From positions 1-39,213 of the forward strand of contig JACDOG010000020.1 in the NCBI GenBank assembly GCA_017656305.1: a stretch of 39,213 nucleotides of DNA, written 5' to 3'. Position 1 is the first letter of the stretch. Every line of letters starts with the position of its first letter. The notes under the pieces are model-generated. The model worked only from the letters and a program-made list of their open reading frames with translations, did no database searches and was not told the DNA's origin. Below, in pieces: positions 1 to 25,970 of this stretch. This DNA comes from Thermoanaerobacteraceae bacterium. Lineage in GTDB: Bacteria > Bacillota > JADQBR01. Made by a program: the position numbers and the translations under genes.

Positions 1-243
1 AGCTGTCATGACGTACACGGTAATACAGAAGTTGAAGCCTTAACGGTTATGGATCCGGAAACACTGTGTGAATCCTGCCACGCCGGTCCGTATGCTCTTG
101 AAGCTTCGGTAGAAGAAGTTATGTTTAACGGTAACCACGCATTCAGAACTGGAGACGCAGAAACCTTTAAGAGCTTGGAGGACGGGTCTGAAAAGAATTA
201 TGCAGATTTTGCTGACCCGCAATTCAGTCATAGTTCTCACTAA
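1..243 (+). CDS. Multiheme c-type cytochrome, C-terminal fragment
   Basis: The open frame runs in from the left edge and stops at TAA 241-243. It begins with the tail of one heme motif (SCHDVHG, the first Cys being outside the window) and contains a complete CESCH motif at about residues 23-27. The rest is an acidic, His-containing tail ending HSSH. CXXCH motifs bind covalent heme c, so this is the end of an exported multiheme cytochrome that probably carries electrons at the cell surface. An intrinsic terminator follows after 14 bases, so it ends its own transcript. The number of hemes and the full length cannot be seen. A second multiheme cytochrome lies at 2040-4496, which supports the assignment. 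Confidence 0.85.
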   Translation, partial: SCHDVHGNTEVEALTVMDPETLCESCHAGPYALEASVEEVMFNGNHAFRTGDAETFKSLEDGSEKNYADFADPQFSHSSH

Positions 244-469: not shown

Positions 470-970
470 ATGAAAAAATTTTTAATATTGAGTTTAATTT
501 TATCAATGTATTTGTTGGGTGGGTGTTCATTGCTTGAGGGAACGCCTCTGGAGGGTTTAGTCTTGAAAATAAACGATAAGATGTCCTCTTCGTTAGCAGC
601 CGAAAAAAATCACACAAATTTCGACATACCTGATGAACCCGGGGAAGTAGTGAAAAAATTATTTCAGGCAGGTTGGGATGGGGTTGAGAAAAACCGTGAA
701 CTTATTGAGCAATTAATTACAGATAATTTTGGTGATTATAATAAACGTTTTCAATTATTTTACCCTGGCAATAGAGAGAATCTACAATTTAATAAATACT
801 TTGTTTTGGACGACGTGAAAAAAAATGGCAGGACAGCCAGTGTAGATTTCCATAATCCCAGTTTTGGTCGTTATTATACAGCTGTATTAGTTAAAACCGG
901 TGGCCATTATAAAATAGACAGGTTAAAATGGCGACCCAATCCCAATCCGAAACCAGATTATCACCCGTAA
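470..970 (+). CDS. Small secreted lipoprotein of unknown function
   Basis: This predicted 166-aa protein starts at ATG 470, behind a strong GGGAGGAGGA ribosome-binding site. Upstream in-frame starts would bury the signal peptide. The N-terminus MKKFLILSLILS is followed by the lipobox LGGC, so Cys19 is the probable lipidated residue and the mature protein sits on the outer face of the membrane. The mature part (FQAGWDGVEKNRELIEQL, then a beta-rich stretch ending in a Pro/Asn/Lys tail) could be an NTF2-like fold, but I do not recognise a family. It sits between two cytochrome genes and directly upstream of another small exported protein, suggesting a role in the same surface electron-transfer unit. 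Its base composition is clearly more A+T-rich than the large cytochrome gene. Confidence 0.75.
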   Translation: MKKFLILSLILSMYLLGGCSLLEGTPLEGLVLKINDKMSSSLAAEKNHTNFDIPDEPGEVVKKLFQAGWDGVEKNRELIEQLITDNFGDYNKRFQLFYPGNRENLQFNKYFVLDDVKKNGRTASVDFHNPSFGRYYTAVLVKTGGHYKIDRLKWRPNPNPKPDYHP

Positions 971-1016: not shown

Positions 1017-1631
1017 GTGAAAAGATTGCTTGGTAGTATATTTGCTTTGCAGTTATTAATAATAATCTTTTGGGGAATATATATTTTTCCCGAAATAGAC
1101 TTGGATAAAGCAATATGGATAGATGAGAAATCTGGAATTAAGGTAGACCAAACTGACCCCGTTAAAACAGTCATTGCTTACTATTCACTGATAAATAATA
1201 AGAGCTTTGAAGCGGCCCAAAAATTAATGACAGCGGCGGGACAGAAAGTTATGACTCCAGAAAAACTGAAAAAGATAAACAGTGAAGTAATATTGAAAGA
1301 AACAAATATAGTGAAATATTATCCTGTAAGAAAGGTAGGGAAAAAATTTGCTTTGGTCGGTAATATCAGAACCATCGGTCAAAATGGTGCAGCACTTGTT
1401 GGAATAACAATTTTAAGGTTGAGCAAGAACGGTTGGCAGATAACCACGAGTGAGGATTTTAAAGGCTTAGATAAAAATACTTTATTAGCGCTTTTTGATA
1501 AAGCAATAGCCGTTTCCGATGAAATCCTAAAGGATAAAGATTTAAAGTTAACTGAAAAACAATATCAACAAGTTGCAAATCAGGCATCGAGCATAAAAGC
1601 TAGCCTGTCTGACGTTAAACAAAAAATTTAA
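1017..1631 (+). CDS. Membrane-anchored small extracytoplasmic protein (paralogue A)
   Basis: A 204-aa product. I chose GTG 1017 because AAGGCAGG lies 8 bases upstream; an in-frame GTG at 1008 overlaps that site. Residues 4-24 form a hydrophobic anchor or uncleaved signal, followed by an acidic linker and then DPVKTVIAYYSLINNKSFEAAQKLM. That last segment resembles the opening helices of NTF2-like (DUF4878-type) domains. The C-terminus is a charged helix. It is clearly paralogous to the product of 4683-5390: both have an aromatic anchor, an (S/T)GI-V-Q/D-(T/D)P segment, a YY-LI-N repeat, and an ISDE(I/L) segment near the C-terminus. The pair brackets the 12-heme cytochrome, so a role in assembling or tethering it is possible but unproven. 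The gene is A+T-rich. Confidence 0.75.
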   Translation: MKRLLGSIFALQLLIIIFWGIYIFPEIDLDKAIWIDEKSGIKVDQTDPVKTVIAYYSLINNKSFEAAQKLMTAAGQKVMTPEKLKKINSEVILKETNIVKYYPVRKVGKKFALVGNIRTIGQNGAALVGITILRLSKNGWQITTSEDFKGLDKNTLLALFDKAIAVSDEILKDKDLKLTEKQYQQVANQASSIKASLSDVKQKI

Positions 1632-1664
1632 TTCTTAATGACCAGGGGTGTGTTGGGCTGAGAA

Positions 1665-1690
1665 ATCTCCTATTGCGGGAGGTTTTTTTT
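1665..1690 (+). terminator. Intrinsic terminator after paralogue A
   Basis: A 6-bp stem (ATCTCC with GGAGGT, one G-U pair, loop of 7) runs into eight T residues, 33 bases after the stop codon. Confidence 0.75.
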
Positions 1691-1699
1691 ATGTAATCT

Positions 1700-2039
1700 T
1701 ATCAGGTCATAAACCGAAAACGCTAGGCATATATATCAAATGTACTTGGAAGACAATTTTCCCTTTCATTTCCTCTTGGTGAAAGGTCGTACAAGAACTT
1801 GGGTGACTGGTAGAAGTTTCTGGGAAACCGCTACTAGTAGGCCGGTTTAAAAGGGTATGGTGTATAGAGGTCTGTACACCGTAACCTTCTGAACTGGTCT
1901 TTTTTGATGGGTAAAAGCGGCAGTGCTGCTTTACCATAGCTGTTTGTTAATGTGCCGGGGAAAGGAGGTGTTTTAAAAGTTTTGGCAATCCGGCGGGACA
2001 AACAGCCGAAGAGGAACATGTGAAGGGAGGAAAAATAAC
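1700..2039 (+). promoter_or_regulatory. Long structured 5' leader of the 12-heme cytochrome gene
   Basis: No gene lies in this 340-base stretch. It contains a promoter-like GTCATAAAC element (1706-1714) followed by TATATAT. Next come a hairpin CCTTTCA/TGAAAGG (1762-1786), a nested hairpin GGTAG/CTACT (1809-1835), a strong terminator hairpin (1839-1905), and a hairpin around 1908-1936. The last element is a 9-bp stem GCTGTTTGT/ACAAACAGC (1939-2006) closing an inner GCCGG/CCGGC stem. AAACCG (1825-1830) can pair instead with CGGTTT (1843-1848), which would open both the 1809-1835 hairpin and the terminator arm. This is the layout of an attenuator or riboswitch, but I do not recognise a known class. 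A separate small RNA ending at about 1905 is the alternative. Confidence 0.6.
1839..1905 (+). terminator. Intrinsic terminator inside the cytochrome leader
   Basis: Arms 1839-1856 and 1883-1900 pair over about 16 of 18 positions with several G-U pairs. An inner hairpin GGTGTA/TACACC lies at 1859-1880, and a run of six T residues follows at 1900-1905. It is 135 bases upstream of the cytochrome start, so readthrough or an internal promoter is needed for expression. Confidence 0.75.
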
Positions 2040-4496
2040 TTGAGAAAGCTGAGTCTGCTATTGGTCATTAGTTTGCTGGTGGTCATAGCCTTTGCAGGAG
2101 TCGCCTTTGCGGAACAGGCAAAATATAAGACAGTATATGACTCCGATGGTGATGGCAACGTCGATTCTTTTAAAGCGTCTTATTCTTCTACTACGGTTCC
2201 GACCACTTATGATGATACCAATTTAGAACGTCTCATTCCTGAAAATAAGTTCAATCCTGACGGTGTGACTAACTACCCGTATGAAATCTATTTACCCAAT
2301 GAAAAAGATCCGGCAAAATACCGGATTCACACCAACTACACTAAAGATACTGATGCTTGTGCTTCCTGTCACGCTACACACACTGCTGTCGGGAAATCCT
2401 TGCTGCAGTGGTACACGGTATATGATACCTGCATGGCCTGCCATGACGGTACGGTAACCACCACCTACAACGTCTGGGGTGGGGAAATCGGTACCACCGA
2501 ACAGCCGACTTTTGGTGGTATGTTCGGCGGAACTGAGTCTGCATCCAGTCACAATGTTGTGGGTACGGTAACAATTGGCGCGGCACCCGGTGGTAGCATC
2601 GTAGAAGAAATCGTTATCACGGAAGCCGGCGAAGAAATCAAACGCTGGTCAGATGAATTTGGCTGCGAGAGCTGCCATACCCCACACGGTCAGGGTGGCA
2701 ACGCTCGTATCCTGCACCCGGACCCCAACGGTTGGGCTACGAAGAACAAACCGAAAGAGGGATTTGAATATAAAGGGACACTAACTGATGCTCCGGGTAC
2801 CGGTTTTTATGATACAGGTGCAGGATATGTTGTTTACCAGAACGGTGAGGCTAAACAGTTAATTGTTGGGTATCCTTATGACCCTGTAATTGTAGATAAA
2901 ACAACCGGAGAGCCAATCGAGGGTGTTACAATTGACAATTCGAAAGGATACTCCGTATTGAATGGACTGACTACAAATGCTCGCGTTTACGCTACTCCGG
3001 CATTGAAGGTAACAATGAATATTACCAATTACTTAGGTAAAGTTGGCAGTGATAAAAAAGAACAAGTTGAACACCTCAGCGGTATGAACACTTACTGCGG
3101 TGCCTGCCATACCGATTACAACACTGAAGACGTTGAGAAGTCCGGTTCCAACCTGAGCGGAACTTACTCCCAGGCGTACCGTCACAAGATGGGCGAAAGC
3201 GCCCGGATTGGCATTCGCAACTATGAAAACTTGCCTGACTTCAGAGCTGCTAACATGAGGATGGAGTCCGGTAAGCTGTACTGCTTGACCTGCCACGTGG
3301 CTCACGGTACTTCTAAAGACTACTGGGAGCGCACCATTGGTGACCAAGGTGGTACGAATGCTTTTGCAGATAGTCAGCTTGTCGAAATATCTGGTTCATC
3401 TGCATTGAAGCGTGCGCCCAACATGGGTACCTGTGAAGCATGCCACGACAAGAGCAGTCAAAATGAAGGTTATGCAGAAAATACCGGAACACAGAACAAG
3501 GTTACTCTAGTAGTTGGAACTTCTGACAAAGGTGGAACGTTCAGCTCGGTAGGTGCTGAGTTTGTGGGCAAGGAAGCATGTGCTGAATGCCATGCCGATT
3601 ACGTAGAAAGCTTTAACCAAACAGCTCATGCTAACATGTTAAGTTTAACTACTGCAGCTGAAAAGAGTTCCTGGGCTGAACAACTTGGATTTACGGATGC
3701 TGACAATGACGGAATCAAAGAACGCACGTACGAAAACGGAATGACTTTCACTGAAGATGATTTAGTACTCAATCTGAATGCTAAAAAAGATGGAGTTGTT
3801 GCAGTTGGCCCAGATGACAAACTATACATTTTGGCAGAAGCAGGGGAAGAATTTGCCGAGCCTGAACAATACGGTTGTGTAGGCTGCCACGTTACTCCCA
3901 AGGATTCCTTCGGTGGACCTGATTATACTTGGACAGAGTTCAAGGCGGCTTTGGACAATGGCGAAATGGAACTGGGTATTCAGTGTGAGGACTGTCACGG
4001 TAGCGGCAGCAAGCACGTCCAGACTCCGAGTGAAAAGAACATTCTCAACCCGGCTGACTTTAGCATGCAGGACCAGAGTAATGATTCTACTGTAGGCTGC
4101 GGACGCTGCCATGGCAAGAGACACCACCAGGGTGAATTCTGGCAAGCGATATCGGTAGACTGGAACAACAGTCACGAAGAGGAAGAGTGGGAGAAAGGTT
4201 TGGTTGGACCTAGTGCCCATTACATTAGCGGTGCTGTCTCTTGTGCTACCTGTCACGATGCGCATGCTGTAATGGAAGATGTCAGTCGTGATGGTAAGCA
4301 GAAAGAAGTACAGCTGAAAATGGAAGTACGCAGCTTGTGCAACGCCTGCCACGGAGATGTTCTCTCTACCGCGGAAGACTTCGACAAACAATTGCCGCTA
4401 AAGATTAACGGTATGCCGGGACACCTGTTTGACGGTAATGGATTACCCGAAGGAGCAGACTATGAAGTTGAGCATGAGCACGGCGTAATAGAGTAA
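2040..4496 (+). CDS. Secreted 12-heme c-type cytochrome
   Basis: An 818-aa product starting at TTG 2040, behind GGGAGG 2025-2030. A signal peptide spans residues 1-24 (cleavage after AFA). Twelve CXXCH motifs begin at residues 107, 131, 209, 353, 415, 465, 514, 613, 649, 687, 735 and 767. Several are followed by extra His residues (CHATH, CHTPH, CHVAH, CHDAH), candidates for distal heme ligands. The stretch from residue 514 (CAECHADYVESFNQTAH) resembles the cytochrome c554 domain. Two DxDxDG loops (residues 34-39 and 553-558) look like calcium sites. There is no LPXTG, SLH or C-terminal membrane anchor, so it is probably secreted or held by partners. Likely role: electron transfer across the wall to an external acceptor. 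A reductase function cannot be excluded. The gene stands alone between terminators. Confidence 0.9.
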   Translation: MRKLSLLLVISLLVVIAFAGVAFAEQAKYKTVYDSDGDGNVDSFKASYSSTTVPTTYDDTNLERLIPENKFNPDGVTNYPYEIYLPNEKDPAKYRIHTNYTKDTDACASCHATHTAVGKSLLQWYTVYDTCMACHDGTVTTTYNVWGGEIGTTEQPTFGGMFGGTESASSHNVVGTVTIGAAPGGSIVEEIVITEAGEEIKRWSDEFGCESCHTPHGQGGNARILHPDPNGWATKNKPKEGFEYKGTLTDAPGTGFYDTGAGYVVYQNGEAKQLIVGYPYDPVIVDKTTGEPIEGVTIDNSKGYSVLNGLTTNARVYATPALKVTMNITNYLGKVGSDKKEQVEHLSGMNTYCGACHTDYNTEDVEKSGSNLSGTYSQAYRHKMGESARIGIRNYENLPDFRAANMRMESGKLYCLTCHVAHGTSKDYWERTIGDQGGTNAFADSQLVEISGSSALKRAPNMGTCEACHDKSSQNEGYAENTGTQNKVTLVVGTSDKGGTFSSVGAEFVGKEACAECHADYVESFNQTAHANMLSLTTAAEKSSWAEQLGFTDADNDGIKERTYENGMTFTEDDLVLNLNAKKDGVVAVGPDDKLYILAEAGEEFAEPEQYGCVGCHVTPKDSFGGPDYTWTEFKAALDNGEMELGIQCEDCHGSGSKHVQTPSEKNILNPADFSMQDQSNDSTVGCGRCHGKRHHQGEFWQAISVDWNNSHEEEEWEKGLVGPSAHYISGAVSCATCHDAHAVMEDVSRDGKQKEVQLKMEVRSLCNACHGDVLSTAEDFDKQLPLKINGMPGHLFDGNGLPEGADYEVEHEHGVIE

Positions 4497-4682: not shown

Positions 4683-5390
4683 ATGAGGAAACTGATTGCG
4701 GCGATTCTTGTGATTCAGATGTTGGTTATCTCGGGATGGGGAGTTTATGAAGCCCGGGCGGTTGGTGACGTATCGTTTGTTGATGAAGTTACCGGTATTG
4801 TGGTGAAACAGGATACGCCGGAGAACACGCTTATTTCTTATTATGAATTGATAAAAAATGGTGCTTATGAGAGCGCGTACTGTTTGCTGACCAGGGAATC
4901 TCGGGAAGCCGTATCGGTGGATATGATTAAGGAGCTGGTTGAACGTACCGGGATGCACGGTGCCGAGCTGGCCAAAATTTTTCCTGCGGAGGTTGACGGG
5001 GAGCTTGCTTTGGTTCCCTACATACGTACTGCCTACTTTAATAAAGAATCTGCGATTTTAGCCATTTCCGTGATGGAGATTCAGGACGGGCACTGGTGTA
5101 TTTTGAAGTCAATTGAACATTACAGTGATGAGCAGTTGAAAAAGATTTTAACTATGGCCATAGAGATTTCCGATGAGCTGGGGCGTGACCCGTTGGAAGA
5201 GTTTAATGATTACCAGCAAGGGCAGGTTCAGAGACAGATTAAGGCCATGCGGCAGACGTACAAGCGGGTTTTAGAAACCATTGATAATCCTATTGAGTTA
5301 AATACTACCGGCAACCGGGTTCCCAATGACAGCGTGCACGGTGGTTCGGGTGACGTGCTGGATGATAGTATACATGGCGGCAACGAGTAA
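4683..5390 (+). CDS. Exported small protein (paralogue B)
   Basis: A 235-aa product starting at ATG 4683 (MRKLIAAILVIQ). The longer open frame upstream, from 4524, runs through the terminator of the previous gene and is not credible. Residues 3-23 are a signal peptide or anchor. The body (TPENTLISYYELIKNGAYESAYCLL) matches paralogue A at 1017-1631 along its length and suggests an NTF2-like fold. It adds a C-terminal tail containing the near-repeat NDSVHGG and DDSIHGG. Codon usage is more G+C-rich than paralogue A. It lies downstream of the 12-heme cytochrome but beyond its terminator, so it is probably transcribed from its own promoter. The function is unknown; an accessory role for the cytochrome is inferred from position only. 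Confidence 0.75.
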   Translation: MRKLIAAILVIQMLVISGWGVYEARAVGDVSFVDEVTGIVVKQDTPENTLISYYELIKNGAYESAYCLLTRESREAVSVDMIKELVERTGMHGAELAKIFPAEVDGELALVPYIRTAYFNKESAILAISVMEIQDGHWCILKSIEHYSDEQLKKILTMAIEISDELGRDPLEEFNDYQQGQVQRQIKAMRQTYKRVLETIDNPIELNTTGNRVPNDSVHGGSGDVLDDSIHGGNE

Positions 5391-6903: not shown

Positions 6904-8922
6904 ATGCCAAGATTTAGAGATCCTAACCACACCTGCAGGCCGTCAGATGCGCCACGGGTTCCTGATAAGAAGACTCGTGAACGCACTACGGACCCGGCAG
7001 CTTTGGAAATGCTGGATGTAGCTAAGGAAAAGAACATCATTACAGCGTTTGACCGCTTCATGGCTCAGCAGCCCCAGTGCCAGTTTGGTTACAAGGGGAT
7101 ATGCTGTCGCTTCTGCATGATGGGACCGTGCCGTATCAAAGCTGATGAGGGCCCGGCTTCCCGCGGTGCTTGCGGTGCGTCGGCATGGACCATCGTTGCT
7201 CGTAGTGTTGGTACCCTGATTGCCACCGGTGCCGCTTCCCATTCTGAGCACGCACGGCACATCGCAGATACCTTACTGGAAGTATCAGAAGGCAAGGCTC
7301 CTGATTACAAGGTCGTGGATGTAGAAAAGCTTAAGAAGGTTGCCAAGCGTATTGGTCTGGAAGTCGAAGGTAAAGACGAGAACCAGCTGGCAAACGAAGT
7401 TGCTATGAAAGCTTTAGAAGACTTTGGTCGTTTGCCTGGTCACGGCCAAGCCACCTGGCTGACTACCACTGTTGTTCCCGCAAGGGTAGAGAAATTCCAG
7501 GATTGCAATATAATGGTATCCGGTATTCACGCTGATATCAGTGACTTGCTGGCCCAGGCTCACGTTGGTAACGATAACGACCCGGTTAACTTGACGTTCA
7601 GTGCAGCGAAAACTGCGTTGTGCGACTATACAGGCATGCACATTGCGACTGATTTATCCGACGTATTGTTCGGTACTCCGGAGCCAATCCAGACAGAGGC
7701 AAACATGGGAACTCTGGATCCCAACAAGGTAAACATTGCGGTTCATGGTCATAACCCGCTGTTGAGTGAAAAGATCGTGGATGCTGCAAAAGAACTGGAA
7801 GATGAAGCCAAGGCCGCGGGTGCCGAAGGTATCAACCTGGTCGGTATTTGCTGTACCGGTAACGAGGTGTTGATGCGCCGCGGTGTACCACTGGTTACTT
7901 CTTATGCTTCTTCTGAACTGGCTATAGTTACCGGTGCTGTGGACGCAATGGTTGTAGACGTTCAGTGTATCATGCCCAGCTTGGCACAGGTTGCTGAATG
8001 CTTCCACACTGAACTGATCACAACCTCACCGATTGTGAAGATACCCGGCACCCAGCATGTTGACTTCAAGACTCAAACTGCTCTGGAAGACGCAAAGAAA
8101 GTAATACGCATCGCTATAGAATCTTACAGAAAACGCGACAATAGTCAAGTGAAAATTCCGGACGTTAAGAATAGAGTGGTGGCGGGCTGGAGTTTGGAAA
8201 GCCTTTATGAATTGTTTGCAACCGTTAATCCGGATAAGCCGGTGCAAGTACTCATCGATGCCATTGAAGCAGGCGAACTAAAAGGCGTGGTCCTTTTTGC
8301 CGGATGTAACAACCTAAAGGGCTTCCAGGACAAGAACCATATTGAAATCGCCAAGGAAATGCTGAAGAATGACGTCTTTGTCGTGGCTACCGGTTGTTCC
8401 GCGCAGGCCTACGCCAAGCACGGACTGATGGATCCTGATGCTGTAGAAAAGTATGCCGGTGAAGGACTGAAGAAGTTCCTGGCCAGGATTACCGAAAAGG
8501 CAGATCTCAATGCTCCCGTTCCGCCGATATTCCATATGGGTGCCTGCGTGGATAACACCAGAGCTTCAGACCTGTTGATGGATATGGCTAATGCCATGGG
8601 TGTAGATACTCCAAAGGTTCCGTTTGTAGCTTCTGCTCCCGAGGCTATGAGTGGTAAGGCCGCTGCCATCGGTACCTGGTTCCTGGCTATGGGTGTGCCG
8701 GTGCACGTTGGTGCTATGCCGCCCATTGAAGGCAGCGACCTGATGTACAGTATCCTCACCCAAATTGCCAGTGATGTTTACGGTGGATACTTCATTCTGG
8801 AAATGGACCCGGCAGAAAGTGCCAAGAAGATACTTAGTGCCTTAGAATACCGCACCTGGAAGCTGGGTGTTCATAAAGATGTGGCTGAAAAGAACAACAC
8901 TGAACTCTGTCAAAATTACTAG
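6904..8922 (+). CDS. acsA: Carbon monoxide dehydrogenase catalytic subunit (CODH/ACS beta)
   Basis: A 672-aa Ni-Fe enzyme that reduces CO2 to CO for acetyl-CoA synthesis, or oxidises CO, in the cytoplasm. D-cluster cysteines are at 59 and 67, and B-cluster cysteines at 68, 71, 76 and 90. The C-cluster ligand motifs appear in order: HGHNP, GICCTGNE, VDVQCIMPS, LFAGCNN, ATGCSAQA, MGACVDNTR. Length and motif order match CooS/AcsA. The start ATG 6904 has AAGGAGG 10 bases upstream. The gene lies between cooC and acsB, so it belongs to a bifunctional CODH/ACS complex, not a stand-alone CO-oxidising CooS. A small hairpin AAAGCC/GGCTTT follows the stop. Confidence 0.97.
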   Translation: MPRFRDPNHTCRPSDAPRVPDKKTRERTTDPAALEMLDVAKEKNIITAFDRFMAQQPQCQFGYKGICCRFCMMGPCRIKADEGPASRGACGASAWTIVARSVGTLIATGAASHSEHARHIADTLLEVSEGKAPDYKVVDVEKLKKVAKRIGLEVEGKDENQLANEVAMKALEDFGRLPGHGQATWLTTTVVPARVEKFQDCNIMVSGIHADISDLLAQAHVGNDNDPVNLTFSAAKTALCDYTGMHIATDLSDVLFGTPEPIQTEANMGTLDPNKVNIAVHGHNPLLSEKIVDAAKELEDEAKAAGAEGINLVGICCTGNEVLMRRGVPLVTSYASSELAIVTGAVDAMVVDVQCIMPSLAQVAECFHTELITTSPIVKIPGTQHVDFKTQTALEDAKKVIRIAIESYRKRDNSQVKIPDVKNRVVAGWSLESLYELFATVNPDKPVQVLIDAIEAGELKGVVLFAGCNNLKGFQDKNHIEIAKEMLKNDVFVVATGCSAQAYAKHGLMDPDAVEKYAGEGLKKFLARITEKADLNAPVPPIFHMGACVDNTRASDLLMDMANAMGVDTPKVPFVASAPEAMSGKAAAIGTWFLAMGVPVHVGAMPPIEGSDLMYSILTQIASDVYGGYFILEMDPAESAKKILSALEYRTWKLGVHKDVAEKNNTELCQNY

Positions 8923-8977
8923 GGTAAAAGCCGCAAGTTTTGGCTTTGAGAGTTAAAAACCGAAAGGAGGAACTAGA

Positions 8978-11179
8978 ATGACTAAAGAGGCATTGAACTT
9001 TGATGCCATTTTTGAAGGTGCTATAGAGCCCGGTAAGGAACCCAAAAAGTTATTCCGGGAAGCCTATAACGGCGCAATTACAGCTGTAAGTTATGCCGAA
9101 ATACTTTTGAATCAGGCTATTCGCAAGTACGGTCCGGACCACCCGGTTGGCTACCCGGATACGGCTTACTACCTGCCGGTTATCCGCTGCTTGAGCGGTG
9201 AAGAAGTGACCAAATTGGGCGATTTACCGCCCATTCTCAACCGGATGCGCGCGCAGATAAATGAAGAACTGACTTTTGAAAACGCCCGTCTCTGGGGTGA
9301 ATCCACCTGGTACGCAGCAGAAATTATTGAAGCGCTGCGCTACCTGAAGTATGACGAGGAAAAACCGCTGGTGCCCGAACCGTGGACCGGCTTTATCGGC
9401 GACCCGGTTGTCCGTAAGTACGGTATTAAGATGGTTGACTGGACTATTCCCGGTGAAGCGGTAATTATTGGCCGGGCCAAGGACAGTAAGAAGCTGGCCA
9501 AATTGGTTCAAGACCTGATGTCTAAGGGCTTCATGCTGTTTCTGGTTGACGAAGTTATTGAGCAGCTGCTGGAGGAAGGGCTTAAGCTTGGTGTTGACTA
9601 CATTGCATTCCCGTTAGGAAACTTTACCCAGGTAGTTCATGCCGGTAACTACGCGCTGCGTGCCGGTATGATGTTCGGTGGTATTGCTCCCGGTAAGCGG
9701 GAAGAACACCGCGACTACCAGCAGCGCCGCGTGCGTGCTTTCGTGCTGTACCTGGGTGAGCACGACATGGTGAAGACCGCTGCCGCTTTCGGGGCAATTT
9801 TCCTCGGGTTCCCGGTAATCACTGATCAGGAACTGGATGAGGACCAGCAGATTAAGGACTGGTTTATCTCTGAACCTGATTACGACAAGATGGTTCAGAC
9901 CGCCATGGAAGTACGCGGCATCAAGATTACCAACATTGAAATTAACGTGCCCATTACCATTGGCCCGGCATTTGAGGGTGAAACCATCCGTAAGGGCGAC
10001 ATGTACGTGGAAATGGGCGGCAGCCGTACCACTGCCTTTGAGCTGGTCCGTTCCGTCGGTCCCGATGAAATCGAAGACGGCAAGATCGAGGTAATTGGAC
10101 CCAACATTGATGACATTGAAGAGGGTGCACGCCTGCCGCTGGGTATCATGGTTGACATTTACGGCCGGAAGATGCAGGAGGACTTTGAAGGCGTGCTGGA
10201 ACGGCGTATTCACGACTTCATCAACTACGGTGAAGGTTTGTGGCACACTGGCCAGCGTGCCATTAACTGGCTGCGTATCAGCAAGGATGCCGTTGCCAAA
10301 GGCTTTAGATTTGAACACTACGGTGAAATTCTCATTGCCAAGATGAAGGAAGAATTCCCGGCCATTGTGGACCGTGTTCAGGTTACCATCATTACAGACG
10401 AAGAACTGGTGAACGAAAAGATTAAGCTTGCCAAGAAAATTTACGCCAAGCGTGACGAACGCTTGAAGGGACTCACCGACGAAAGCGTGGATACCTTCTA
10501 CAGCTGTATCCTGTGCAAATCTTTCGCACCCAACCACGTGTGTATCGTTACACCGGAACGTGTGGGCCTGTGTGGTGCTGTAAGCTGGCTGGATGCCAAG
10601 GCTTCTTACGAAATTGACAACACCGGACCGAACCAGCCCATTGAGAAAGGGCCGGCAATGGATGAAATTAAGGGTATGTGGAAGAGCGTGAACGAATACG
10701 TTTACAAGGAGTCCAACCGTAACCTGGAAGAAGTCAATATCTACTCCATGATGGATAAACCCATGACTTCTTGCGGTTGTTTCGAGGCTATCATAGCCAT
10801 CGTGCCCGAATGCAACGGCATCATGATTACTACTCGTGAGCACGGTGGTATGACTCCGTGCGGTATGACGTTCTCCACACTGGCCGGTATGGTTGGTGGC
10901 GGTACGCAGACTCCCGGATTCATGGGTATCGGCCGCAGCTACATTGTCAGCAGAAAGTTCATCCCGGCTGATGGCGGCATTGCGCGCATCATTTGGATGC
11001 CCAAGGAACTGAAGGAATTCTTGCGCGAAGACTTCATTGAGCGCAGCAAGGAAGAAGGACTGGGAGAGGACTTCATTGACAAGATTGCCGATGAAACCGT
11101 AGGTACTGACCCCGACGAAATCCTGCCGTTCCTTGAAGAAAAAGGACATCCGGCACTGACCATGGAACCGTTAATGTAA
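8978..11179 (+). CDS. acsB: Acetyl-CoA synthase (CODH/ACS alpha subunit)
   Basis: A 733-aa enzyme that condenses CO, a corrinoid-bound methyl group and CoA into acetyl-CoA. The A-cluster ligands are visible: C510, C513, C522 and C532 (CILCKSF...HVC...GLC) for the [4Fe-4S] cubane, and C599-G-C601 (TSCGCF) for the nickel site. The numbering is four higher than the well-studied Moorella enzyme, and the length is the usual bacterial one including the N-terminal CO-channel domain. The start ATG 8978 follows AAAGGAGG. The gene is followed by a strong hairpin without a T run and then acsC. The reverse strand has a 511-codon open frame that I regard as a coding-bias shadow. Confidence 0.97.
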   Translation: MTKEALNFDAIFEGAIEPGKEPKKLFREAYNGAITAVSYAEILLNQAIRKYGPDHPVGYPDTAYYLPVIRCLSGEEVTKLGDLPPILNRMRAQINEELTFENARLWGESTWYAAEIIEALRYLKYDEEKPLVPEPWTGFIGDPVVRKYGIKMVDWTIPGEAVIIGRAKDSKKLAKLVQDLMSKGFMLFLVDEVIEQLLEEGLKLGVDYIAFPLGNFTQVVHAGNYALRAGMMFGGIAPGKREEHRDYQQRRVRAFVLYLGEHDMVKTAAAFGAIFLGFPVITDQELDEDQQIKDWFISEPDYDKMVQTAMEVRGIKITNIEINVPITIGPAFEGETIRKGDMYVEMGGSRTTAFELVRSVGPDEIEDGKIEVIGPNIDDIEEGARLPLGIMVDIYGRKMQEDFEGVLERRIHDFINYGEGLWHTGQRAINWLRISKDAVAKGFRFEHYGEILIAKMKEEFPAIVDRVQVTIITDEELVNEKIKLAKKIYAKRDERLKGLTDESVDTFYSCILCKSFAPNHVCIVTPERVGLCGAVSWLDAKASYEIDNTGPNQPIEKGPAMDEIKGMWKSVNEYVYKESNRNLEEVNIYSMMDKPMTSCGCFEAIIAIVPECNGIMITTREHGGMTPCGMTFSTLAGMVGGGTQTPGFMGIGRSYIVSRKFIPADGGIARIIWMPKELKEFLREDFIERSKEEGLGEDFIDKIADETVGTDPDEILPFLEEKGHPALTMEPLM

Positions 11180-11191
11180 CTAGATTTCTTG

Positions 11192-11229
11192 GGAGAAGGC
11201 ATCGGCTTTACGGGGCCGCTGCCTTCTCC
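11192..11229 (+). other. Intercistronic hairpin between acsB and acsC
   Basis: A perfect 10-bp stem GGAGAAGGCA/TGCCTTCTCC with an 18-base loop containing a further CGGC/GCCG pairing. No T run follows, so it looks like an mRNA-stability or processing element rather than a terminator. Confidence 0.6.
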
Positions 11230-11322
11230 AGTCAAAATATATTCGAAAAGATGCGGTTAACCGGTCTTTTCGAGCTTGCAGGTTTATACGTCCTAATAAT
11301 TATAAAGAAAGGAGTTAGGTGT

Positions 11323-12660
11323 ATGGGTTTAACAGGTCTTGAAATTTATAAGCAGCTACCAAAGAAAAATTGCGGAGAATGCGGACCTCCGACCTGTCTG
11401 GCGTTTGCCATGGCGCTGGCAAACGGCAAGGCACAGCTGGATGCCTGCCCCTACGTGTCAGATGAAGCAAGAGCAAACCTGGAGTCTGCCTCTGCTCCGC
11501 CCATTGCGCTGGTGAAGGCCGGTGCAGGTGACTACGTAGTGGAAATGGGTGACGAAACTGAACTGTTCCGTCACGACAAGAAGTTCTATCACGAAACCGC
11601 CATTGCTTTCAAGGTCAGTGACACCTTAAGCGAAGATGATATTGAAGCCAAGGCAAAAGAAATTGACGGCCTGGTTTTTGAAAGGGTCGGTCTGCAGTAC
11701 AGGGTTCAATTTGCAGCCGTTGTCAATGACTCCAAAGACCCGGTAACCTTTAAAAATGCAGTGAGCAAGGTGGCTGCAGTTACCAATATCACCCCGATGC
11801 TGGTATCCGAAGACCCGGTAGCTATTGAGGGCGCTTTGGAAGTGGTCGGTGACAGGAAACCGGTTATTTACGCCGCTACTACAGACAACTATGAAAAGAT
11901 GACCGAACTGGCCAAGAGTAAGGAGTGCCCGCTGGTGGTTAAGGCAGATGGCTTGGAAGCTCTGGCTGAGCTGGTAGAGAAGGTTGTCGGCCTGGGCTAC
12001 AAGCAGTTGATTTTGGACAGCGGACAGAGAGAAACTGCCAAGGTTATTGCTGACCTGGTACAGATTCGCCGCCAGGCAATCAAGAAGAAGTTCCGCCCGT
12101 TCGGTTACCCGACTGTTGCGTTTACCACCGAAGAGGATCCGCTGGCGGAAATTAACCAGGCAGTTGCCTACGTTAGCAAGTATGCAAGCGTGGTTGTTTT
12201 GAATACCACCGACAAAGCTCACGTACTGCCGCTGCTGTCCTGGAGACAGAACCTGTACACGGACCCGCAGGTGCCCATCCAGGTGGAAGAGAAGCTGCAT
12301 AAAGTGGGCGAGCCCGATGAGAATTCACCGGTTTACCTGACAACCAACTTCTCCCTAACTTACTACTCTGTTGAGGGCGAAGTGGAAGCTACCAAGATAC
12401 CAAGCTATATCCTGGCCGTTGATACTGACGGTACTTCCGTACTGACTGCCTATGCAGCTGGCAAGTTTGAAGCGGAAAAAATTGCCGAGGTTATGGAGAA
12501 GGTCGGCCTCAATGACAAGGTTAAGCACCGTAATATAGTAATTCCGGGCTATGTGGCAGTGCTCAAGGGTAAATTGGAAGAAGCGTCTGGTTGGAACGTA
12601 ATCGTAGGACCAAGGGAGGCTTCTGGAATAGTAGCATTTGCGAAAAGTCAATTTTCCTAG
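11323..12660 (+). CDS. acsC: Corrinoid iron-sulfur protein large (gamma) subunit
   Basis: A 445-aa large subunit of the corrinoid/Fe-S protein, which carries the methyl group from methyl-THF to acetyl-CoA synthase. The N-terminal [4Fe-4S] motif has cysteines at 17, 20, 25 and 42 (NCGECGPPTC...ACPY). A TIM-barrel domain and the C-terminal cobalamin-binding domain follow. I chose ATG 11323 because AAAGGAG lies just upstream and the product then starts MGLTGLEIYKQLPKKNCGEC, as in the family. The longer frame from 11251 runs through the leader. It lies 10 bases before acsV, its dedicated activator. Confidence 0.96.
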   Translation: MGLTGLEIYKQLPKKNCGECGPPTCLAFAMALANGKAQLDACPYVSDEARANLESASAPPIALVKAGAGDYVVEMGDETELFRHDKKFYHETAIAFKVSDTLSEDDIEAKAKEIDGLVFERVGLQYRVQFAAVVNDSKDPVTFKNAVSKVAAVTNITPMLVSEDPVAIEGALEVVGDRKPVIYAATTDNYEKMTELAKSKECPLVVKADGLEALAELVEKVVGLGYKQLILDSGQRETAKVIADLVQIRRQAIKKKFRPFGYPTVAFTTEEDPLAEINQAVAYVSKYASVVVLNTTDKAHVLPLLSWRQNLYTDPQVPIQVEEKLHKVGEPDENSPVYLTTNFSLTYYSVEGEVEATKIPSYILAVDTDGTSVLTAYAAGKFEAEKIAEVMEKVGLNDKVKHRNIVIPGYVAVLKGKLEEASGWNVIVGPREASGIVAFAKSQFS

Positions 12661-12670
12661 GAGTGATTAG

Positions 12671-14596
12671 ATGAGCAAGCATGTGGTAAGATTTGTGCCC
12701 GAAAACATTTCCGTAACCGTCGATAAAGGTACTACAGTGCTCCGAGCAGCGTCATTGGCAGGTATAGAGATAAAAAGTACCTGCGGTGGCAAGGGGAGCT
12801 GTGGGCGTTGTGCCATTAAAGTGGTGGACGGCCAGGTGCGCTACGAAAAAGGTAACCGGTCCAAGAAGCTGAAAGACCAGGGATTAGATCTTGCCTGCCA
12901 AACCTTTGTTGAAGGTGACGTGGTGGTTGAGGTTCCCAGGGATTCGCGGCTGGATAAGCACCAGGTGCTGCTGGAGAACGAAAACCGTGGTAAGGTGCTG
13001 GCGGAAAAGGAGCTGGATCTGCTGCAGGAGTATGAGTTTAAACCGCTTTGCCGTAAAGTCCAGCTGACCCTTGAACCGCCTACCCTGACGGAAAATGCCA
13101 GCGATTTAACCAGGCTGCAGGCGGAGTTAAGACAGACCACCCAGTGCAAGGAATTAATTGTCGGTCTGCCCGTGCTGCAGAAACTGGCGCAAACCCTCCG
13201 TCAGGAAGACTGGAAGGTCACCGCTACCCTGGCCTGCATGAACGGTATCACCGAGATTATCAATGTGGAACCGGGACATATAGCCAATTCCGGTTATGGT
13301 CTGGCGGTGGATATCGGGACGACCACAGTGGTGGTCTATGTGGTGGATTTGGCTACTGGTGAAACCGTTGACAAGCGCGGCACTTACAATAAGCAGGCTA
13401 AATACGGTGATGACGTGATTTCTCGTATGATTTACGCCGGGGAAGAGAACGGCCTGCAGGAACTGCAGGATGCGGTGATTGCTACCATCAACGAGTTGAC
13501 TGACCAGTTGCTGGAAAAGAACGGCATCAAACCCGCCGACGTTATGGTGGCCGTTACAGCTGGCAACACAACTATGGCGCACCTGCTTTTGGGGTTGCCA
13601 CCCAAGTACATTCGGCTGGAACCGTATATTCCCACTGCCACTGAATTACCTCCGGTGAAAGCTAGAGAACTGGGCATTCATATCAATCCCGAGGCCTGGG
13701 TATTGAGTTTCCCGGCGGTAGCCAGCTACGTCGGCGGCGATATTGTAGCCGGGGTACTGGCGACCCAGATGGCGCGGTCGGAGGAGATGACACTTTTTAT
13801 CGACATTGGTACCAACGGGGAAATAGTGTTGGGCAACAAGGAATTTTTGATATCCTGTGCTTGCTCCGCAGGGCCAGCTTTTGAAGGCGGCGGCATTACA
13901 TTTGGCATGCGGGCTATGACCGGAGCAATTGAAAGGATAAATATAGATCCAAATACTTTTGATGTGCAATTAAAAACCATTGGCGATAGCAAACCCATCG
14001 GTATTTGCGGATCAGGCCTGATAGACTGCCTGGCCAAGCTGCACCGGGTTGGCTTGATAGATCGTACCGGACAGTTTTTCCGCGACAGGGAGACGCCGAG
14101 ACTGAGAAAAACTGATGATGGCTGGGAATTTGTCCTCGCATGGGCGGACGAAAGTGATATTGACCAGGATATTGTCATTACCGAAGCGGATATTAAGAAC
14201 TTACTCCGTTCCAAGGGAGCCGTATTTGCAGGTATTCAAAGCCTCTTGAAGTCAATGCAGATGGATGTGAACATGATTGAGAAGATAATTATTGCCGGAG
14301 GTTTTGGTAACTACCTGAATGTGGATGACGCGGTGCAGATTGGACTGTTGCCGGACGTGGAACGGGATAAGTACGAGTTTTTGGGCAACACCTCGGTCAA
14401 GGGTGCCAGGATGGCGTTGTTGTCTCAGGACGCTTTCAGGGAATCAATTGAACTGGGTCACAAGATGACCTACCTGGAGCTTTCCGCAGGTACCACCTTT
14501 ATGGATGAATTTGTTTCGGCAACGTTTATACCGCATACCGATTTAACTCTGTTCCCGTCAGTGAAAGATGAAGTGGAACAAGGAAAGGCTGGGTGA
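12671..14596 (+). CDS. acsV: Reductive activator of the corrinoid iron-sulfur protein (RACo)
   Basis: A 641-aa ATP-dependent reductase that returns accidentally oxidised Co(II) corrinoid in AcsCD to Co(I). The N-terminal plant-type [2Fe-2S] domain has cysteines at 38, 44, 47 and 76. A linker region follows, then an ASKHA-type ATPase domain from about residue 205. That domain carries VDIGTTTVVVYVVD (phosphate-1 type) and later FIDIGTNGE, CSAGPAFEGG, CGSGLID and IIAGGFGN. This is the DUF4445/RACo architecture. The start ATG 12671 follows AGGAG. It sits immediately after acsC and overlaps or abuts acsF, consistent with translational coupling. Confidence 0.94.
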   Translation: MSKHVVRFVPENISVTVDKGTTVLRAASLAGIEIKSTCGGKGSCGRCAIKVVDGQVRYEKGNRSKKLKDQGLDLACQTFVEGDVVVEVPRDSRLDKHQVLLENENRGKVLAEKELDLLQEYEFKPLCRKVQLTLEPPTLTENASDLTRLQAELRQTTQCKELIVGLPVLQKLAQTLRQEDWKVTATLACMNGITEIINVEPGHIANSGYGLAVDIGTTTVVVYVVDLATGETVDKRGTYNKQAKYGDDVISRMIYAGEENGLQELQDAVIATINELTDQLLEKNGIKPADVMVAVTAGNTTMAHLLLGLPPKYIRLEPYIPTATELPPVKARELGIHINPEAWVLSFPAVASYVGGDIVAGVLATQMARSEEMTLFIDIGTNGEIVLGNKEFLISCACSAGPAFEGGGITFGMRAMTGAIERINIDPNTFDVQLKTIGDSKPIGICGSGLIDCLAKLHRVGLIDRTGQFFRDRETPRLRKTDDGWEFVLAWADESDIDQDIVITEADIKNLLRSKGAVFAGIQSLLKSMQMDVNMIEKIIIAGGFGNYLNVDDAVQIGLLPDVERDKYEFLGNTSVKGARMALLSQDAFRESIELGHKMTYLELSAGTTFMDEFVSATFIPHTDLTLFPSVKDEVEQGKAG

Positions 14597-25744: not shown

Positions 25745-25970
25745 ATTGCGAACGACAATGAACAGGAAGATCGGTGGTTATGTTTTTTACAGAGAGCCGG
25801 GGCAGGTGAGAGTCCGGTAAAAACAGGTCACCGAGGCCGCCTGGGAGTTGACCGGTGAGGAATCGGTTCGCCTAGCCGGCGTTATCGGCAAGAGTGGGTT
25901 TTTAAACCAACAAGGGTGGTACCGCGGAAAAACTTTCGTCCCTTACTGGGGGTGAAAGTTTTTTGTTTTA
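25745..25970 (+). promoter_or_regulatory. T-box riboswitch, probably reading tRNA-Ala
   Basis: Stem I includes the AGAGAGC-type element in ACAGAGAGCCGG. The canonical T-box sequence AAGGGTGGTACCGCGG is at 25912-25927, followed by the competing terminator. Pairing CAGG (25763-25766) with CCTG (25840-25843), and CGGTG (25772-25776) with CACCG (25829-25833), leaves an internal loop whose 3' side reads AGGCCG. The best specifier is then GCC (25836-25838), an alanine codon. Assigning the specifier by hand is uncertain. Uncharged tRNA would stabilise the antiterminator and turn on the regulator and aminotransferase genes downstream. Confidence 0.9.
25928..25966 (+). terminator. Regulated terminator of the T-box leader
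   Basis: Stem AACTTTCGTCCC with GGGGTGAAAGTT followed by TTTT. Its 5' arm lies just after the T-box sequence that forms the antiterminator. Confidence 0.9.

Follow-up and report, generated by a model that had tools for sequence, protein, structure and literature searches.

Genomic context of the cytochrome leader

Does the long 5' leader of a multiheme cytochrome gene in a Thermoanaerobacteraceae bacterium act as a conditional switch for transcription? The question was raised by a first-pass annotation, which described a terminator and a competing RNA pairing in front of a 12-heme cytochrome gene. The DNA analysed here (the window; 39,213 nucleotides) is contig C20 of a 2.7-Mb genome, and the leader is flanked by the following features.

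1-243, forward strand: 3' end of the neighbouring 11-heme cytochrome gene (copy A), the leader of which lies on contig C29
1667-1691, forward strand: terminator of the upstream gene, with the stem CTCCTATTGCGGGAG at 1667-1681 followed by T8 (sequence and terminator survey, -356)
2023-2042, forward strand: ribosome-binding site GGGAGG and TTG start codon, identical in copy A
2040-4496, forward strand: 12-heme c-type cytochrome of 818 aa, with a TTG start and a signal peptide recognized by eye

The window cytochrome contains 12 CXXCH motifs, in agreement with the heme count given originally, and its residues 503-671 match OcwA (PDB 6I5B, E = 5.5e-5). A second copy of the leader, the only other one in the genome, is located on contig C29, where it precedes a homologous cytochrome with 11 CXXCH motifs that is 49% identical to the window protein over the alignment. 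The 3' end of contig C29 (G000:C29:21414-21468) overlaps exactly with the 55 bases at window positions 1-55 and the reading frame continues across the overlap, showing that the gene cut at window 1-243 is this second cytochrome and that the two genes are tandem neighbours.

Small ORFs resembling secreted proteins or lipoproteins, and belonging to no family, are located behind each cytochrome gene (window 470-970, 1008-1631 and 4683-5390). The ORFs at 1008-1631 and 4683-5390 are 27% identical (E = 2e-23) and, as judged from sequence, the cytochrome and its accessory ORF seem to have been duplicated as a unit. A cluster for CO dehydrogenase/acetyl-CoA synthase, including the corrinoid protein and its activator, is located further downstream in the window (6904-14596).

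Structure of the leader

The leader contains a series of elements between position 1799 and the start codon.

1799-1802, forward strand: TTGG, 5' strand of a proposed antiterminator helix (P0), at the start of the similarity between the copies; pairs with 1842-1845 in both
1806-1838, forward strand: hairpin P1, 13 bp in two tiers (minimum free energy fold; pair changes between the copies)
1839-1906, forward strand: intrinsic terminator, a 27-pair interrupted stem at 1839-1900 followed by TTTTTT (fold and terminator survey)
1842-1845, forward strand: CCGG (CCAG in copy A), common to the proposed P0 and the terminator base (both copies; co-transcriptional folding)
1909-1935, forward strand: hairpin GGGTAAAAGCGGCAGTGCTGCTTTACC, followed by ATA, conserved in copy A (folded)
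1939-2006, forward strand: two-tier hairpin with GGAAAGGAGG (1959-1968) in its loop, stems 1939-1947/1998-2006 and 1954-1958/1990-1994

The outer stem of P1 pairs ACTGGTAG (1806-1813) with CTACTAGT (1831-1838), and the inner stem pairs GTTTC with GAAAC (1816-1820/1824-1828), with an internal loop AA/CG between the two tiers and an apical loop of 3 nt in the window copy and 4 nt in copy A. Both hairpins had been recognized in the first-pass annotation, although P1 is slightly larger than the 1809-1835 described there. The very strong terminator, the base of which consists of AGGCCGGTTTA (1839-1849) and TGAACTGGTCT (1890-1900) below an upper stem, adjoins P1 directly and, as noted originally, is separated by 135 bases from the TTG start at 2040. 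The two hairpins abut and are compatible; they do not exclude each other.

The minimum free energy of window 1799-1912 is -51 kcal/mol, whereas shuffled sequences average -28.7 (z = -7.0) and none of the 200 reached the value of the window; the same region in copy A has a z-score of -5.6. Such extreme stability is also what would be expected of a plain, unconditional terminator that insulates the cytochrome genes from upstream transcription or forms the end of a small RNA, with a promoter located after 1906 or with a constant leaky read-through that sets a low level of expression. The T tract is weak in copy A (TTTTCTT), which counts against attenuation and fits a purely post-transcriptional role, in which a structured 5' end and a Shine-Dalgarno-like loop protect a long-lived cytochrome mRNA, or mark a processing site, and the termination-like shape is incidental or weak. 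In the window copy, however, the stem is GC-based and immediately followed by T6, as in a textbook terminator.

Conservation of the leader as a unit

The similarity between the two copies begins exactly at base 1799. In the switch region (1799-1911), 81 of 112 positions are identical (72%), and the rest of the leader is 70% identical, as compared to 72 of 169 fourfold-degenerate sites in the two cytochrome genes (43%). The low identity at these sites shows that silent positions have largely diverged and that the duplication is old. Across the 108 bases upstream of 1799, identity is at the shuffled level (40/100).

With the arms in register, 96% of the pair cells are kept between the copies. 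Three pairs in P1 have changed on both sides and one pair on one side, while in the terminator one pair has changed on both sides and five on one side with pairing kept, and 3 of 50 cells are unpaired. In all, four pairs show two-sided compensatory changes and six show one-sided changes; with two sequences the covariation is weak, and 35 of 500 shuffles reached the four two-sided changes. The 5' arm of the terminator, which is used in both proposed states, is more similar between the copies than the 3' arm (19/21 versus 15/21 identical), a difference that is suggestive only. The leader singled out by the first-pass annotation is thus preserved in a homologous leader and contains compensatory changes; together with an identity that exceeds that of the fourfold sites and the sharp start of the similarity at 1799, this argues that it is under selection as a unit with its gene.

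Both copies have retained the whole series as far as the start codon: TTGG, P1, the terminator, the hairpin behind it and the Shine-Dalgarno-like loop. The small ORF upstream of the window leader ends at 1631 and has its own terminator at 1667-1691, which makes the terminator at 1839 superfluous for that gene. For these reasons, the leader probably belongs to the cytochrome gene, and the window-copy terminator at 1839 likely serves the cytochrome rather than the upstream gene. These observations speak against an unconditional terminator, as does the preservation of P1 and TTGG beside it, which a plain terminator would not need. On the other side, in copy A the terminator survey identified this terminator alone in the interval from the upstream gene to the cytochrome gene.

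Candidate antiterminator pairings

The first-pass annotation proposed that AAACCG (1825-1830) pairs with CGGTTT (1843-1848) and thereby opens both P1 and the terminator. The six complementary base pairs exist, and copy A still allows the pairing AAATTG/CAGTTT to be drawn, in which one pair has changed on both sides. However, 7% of the shuffles likewise yielded six consecutive Watson-Crick pairs between two arms of this kind, and the changes in each arm are already explained by P1 and the terminator. Because the pairing dismantles P1, it is expensive: forcing it costs 13.7 kcal/mol in the window copy and 17.0 kcal/mol in copy A, with a pair probability of about 1e-9 or less. Furthermore, P1 is complete before CGGTTT is transcribed. 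The complementarity itself is thus confirmed, but we rejected its role as the antiterminator on the basis of the folding energy and consider a switch of this form very improbable.

The alternative helix P0, in which TTGG pairs with CCGG or CCAG, can form in both copies, where it lengthens P1 and takes away the terminator base. When it is imposed on the complete transcript, the cost is 6.0 kcal/mol in one copy and 8.8 kcal/mol in the other, versus 13.7 and 17.0 kcal/mol for AAACCG/CGGTTT, and the hairpin that remains is shorter and separated from the T tract by several bases. In co-transcriptional folds of both copies, P0 forms until the last bases of the terminator have been made. P0 consists of 3-4 pairs including G-U, and the two sequences compared have no two-sided change within it. 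We also examined pairing of the bases upstream of 1799 with the 5' arm of the terminator, which was striking in copy A and did not exceed shuffles in the window copy. Folding and conservation suggest that P0 is a plausible antiterminator helix, and the predicted arrangement would be that of an on-type attenuator.

A transcription attenuator as the main reading

We put the probability that the element, located in the 5' leaders of two tandem multiheme cytochrome genes, works as a transcription attenuator at roughly 0.5. RNA polymerase would start between 1692 and 1798, and P1 is predicted from folding to form first. In the absence of a signal, the terminator at 1839-1900 would be completed and, to judge from its anatomy, most transcripts would stop near 1906. 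If something stabilized P1 and P0, the terminator would lose the GC-rich pairs beside the T tract and transcription would read through into the cytochrome gene. Bases upstream of 1799 may lengthen P0, and the stabilizing factor could be a small molecule or an RNA-binding protein. Downstream of the switch, the Shine-Dalgarno-like loop would probably hold a 30S subunit and protect or prime the message. That the cytochrome leader is under conditional control of some kind is likely.

Promoter scans on both sides of the terminator identified nothing similar to a sigma-A promoter above the shuffled level. While the intrinsic terminator in the 5' leader is clear, a promoter in front of it could not be recognized, which is in favour of an unconditional terminator. 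For a promoter located after 1906, the difficulty is that 1907-2000 is filled by two conserved hairpins and likewise contains no promoter-like site above shuffles. On balance, we regard an unconditional terminator as unlikely. No long conserved unpaired stretch that could serve as a ligand pocket was observed in the leader when the two copies were compared.

The segment ATTTCCTC(C), found at window 1761-1775 and at 1463-1477 of leader L002, is the complement of the ribosome-binding site GGGAGGAAA of the cytochrome gene itself. It is located at about equal upstream distances in the two leaders, in dissimilar surroundings, and could be a chance occurrence.

Comparison with known RNA classes

The leader had been matched by eye to no known class, and this was borne out by a search of window 1620-2060 against Rfam, in which neither the gathering score nor a threshold of E <= 10 returned a riboswitch or any other credible family. 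This includes T-box leaders (RF00230) and c-di-GMP-I/GEMM riboswitches (RF01051), for which no covariance-model match was obtained in the leader, as well as ZTP (pfl), preQ1, fluoride and other Rfam riboswitches, for which there was no match at E <= 10 on 1620-2060. A T-box leader (RF00230) is located elsewhere in the window (25749-25946, 103 bits), and the family search identified four true c-di-GMP-I riboswitches elsewhere in the genome. Both classes were found by the same kinds of search, showing that known classes are detectable in this genome.

One of the c-di-GMP-I riboswitches (L078 1501-1585; G000:C22:26592-26676) precedes an ORF with five CXXCH motifs. By analogy, the presence of such a leader before another multiheme ORF in the same genome may be counted in favour of the attenuator reading. 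The GEMM-I class of riboswitches for c-di-GMP or cGAMP (RF01051; GEMM-Ib of Geobacter) resembles the cytochrome leader in being a leader RNA with a terminator before genes for extracellular electron transfer, a terminator that is conditional in GEMM-I and is proposed to be so here; it differs in that the cytochrome leader has no RF01051 match, even at E <= 10. In a Geobacter riboswitch reporter, ligand binding was suggested to stabilize the antiterminator and turn expression on (PMC6456294).

The ZTP/pfl, preQ1 and fluoride attenuators share with the cytochrome leader a compact hairpin region and a closing helix, the 3' strand of which also belongs to the terminator base. The window leader contains GUGACUGG, which we take to be a string found in ZTP RNAs, while copy A has AUGACCGG instead; the ZTP architecture is presumably different from that of the cytochrome leader. 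Targets of LicT/SacT (RAT) and of ANTAR proteins have in common with this leader a hairpin directly before or overlapping a terminator. A RAT itself overlaps its terminator, whereas P1 does not. ANTAR targets consist of two hairpins with hexaloops before a terminator, while the loop of P1 comprises 3 nt (4 nt in copy A) and P1 is followed by the terminator with no second hairpin of the hexaloop type in between.

Distribution of the proposed switch region

A covariance model (R1) was built from the two rows, with one base removed from each by hand for register, a procedure that favours structure. A search of 398 genomes of the phylum with this model identified no credible match beyond these two leaders, and two copies are insufficient to prove a switch. 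A match in genome G109 (E = 0.057) is antisense inside a protein gene and was taken as chance, and matches on the minus strand are palindromes of the terminators themselves. A 17-base conserved pattern gave six matches in viral contigs, none better than E = 0.55 with the model, and these were also attributed to chance.

The class to which this bacterium belongs is represented by three genomes, and in the other two no homologous cytochrome was identified at the cut-off used, for which reason the lack of further copies is weak evidence. A genome scan based on the cytochrome recovered a single relative, Carboxydothermus islandicus, the leader of which has the Shine-Dalgarno-like element without the switch. 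More generally, the leaders of other cytochromes, whether in this genome or in other families, lack the P1-terminator part.

The Shine-Dalgarno-like loop

The sequence GGAAAGGAGG is separate from the true ribosome-binding site, lying about 70 nt ahead of the start codon, and there is no conserved start codon behind it; a possible TTG frame of 12 codons is not kept in copy A, as judged by eye. The 10-mer or a near form of it was found in 10 other cytochrome leaders (11 with the window), at a similar place and with no start codon directly behind it. These 11 leaders (window 1939-2006; L002 1635-1741; L026, L038, L042, L043, L056, L057, L058, L059 and L031) come from this genome, from genome G004 and from Carboxydothermus-type genomes, with the general form GGAAAGGAGG(G). 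In several other leaders, the 10-mer belongs to a start site, either for an upstream start codon in frame or for a short frame. The stems around the loop differ in sequence between species. Enclosure of the loop in a hairpin is significant over the 11 leaders (p ~1e-4 with mononucleotide shuffles, the leaders not being independent) and mostly not significant singly, with p = 0.25 for the window copy alone.

In leader L038 and in the leader of the cytochrome on contig C21 (L026), a hairpin followed by CCATA also precedes the Shine-Dalgarno-like element. The latter leader contains, in addition, a palindrome of the CRP/FNR type (TTGTGA-N6-TTACAA) and a strong hairpin, GGTGCTTA...TAAGCACC, about 120-190 bases before the start.

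The STAB-SD of cry3A resembles a Shine-Dalgarno sequence but initiates no translation; instead, it is bound by 30S subunits and acts as a block to RNase J1 (PMC4113751). The cytochrome leader likewise contains a non-initiating Shine-Dalgarno-like sequence; it differs from STAB-SD in that a two-tier hairpin holds it in its loop, some 70 nt ahead of the start codon, and here stabilization is a prediction. By this analogy, we infer a STAB-SD-like stabilizing role for the GGAAAGGAGG loop, and it is possible that the loop is a general stabilizer or standby site for multiheme cytochrome genes across families.

The resemblance to the cry3A element (PMC4113751) and the recurrence of the loop, which starts no gene, in other cytochrome leaders would also be accounted for if the whole leader acted after transcription. 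Since other cytochrome leaders have the loop element without P1 and the terminator, the two parts are separable, and we find a purely post-transcriptional role for the leader quite unlikely.

Possible implications for the control of extracellular electron transfer

The leader is real, selected and duplicated, with a strong terminator, and its class is not in Rfam. We suggest only tentatively, and regard as doubtful at present, that it represents a new class of cis-acting leader RNA, either a riboswitch or a protein-bound attenuator, that would control extracellular electron transfer in Gram-positive bacteria through the choice between P0-P1 and the terminator; so far, it is confined to the tandem pair of one genome. 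Riboswitches that respond to cGAMP and contain terminators gate the cytochrome genes used by Geobacter for extracellular electron transfer (PMC6456294). For Gram-positive bacteria, our literature search, which was of partial coverage, brought up no control element of this kind. With its preserved and unclassified terminator, the leader of the tandem cytochrome genes provides a concrete target of 110 bases for asking whether such bacteria use RNA to gate the export of electrons. The occurrence of a common Shine-Dalgarno-like loop also points to special stabilization of the very large and presumably abundant cytochrome messages.
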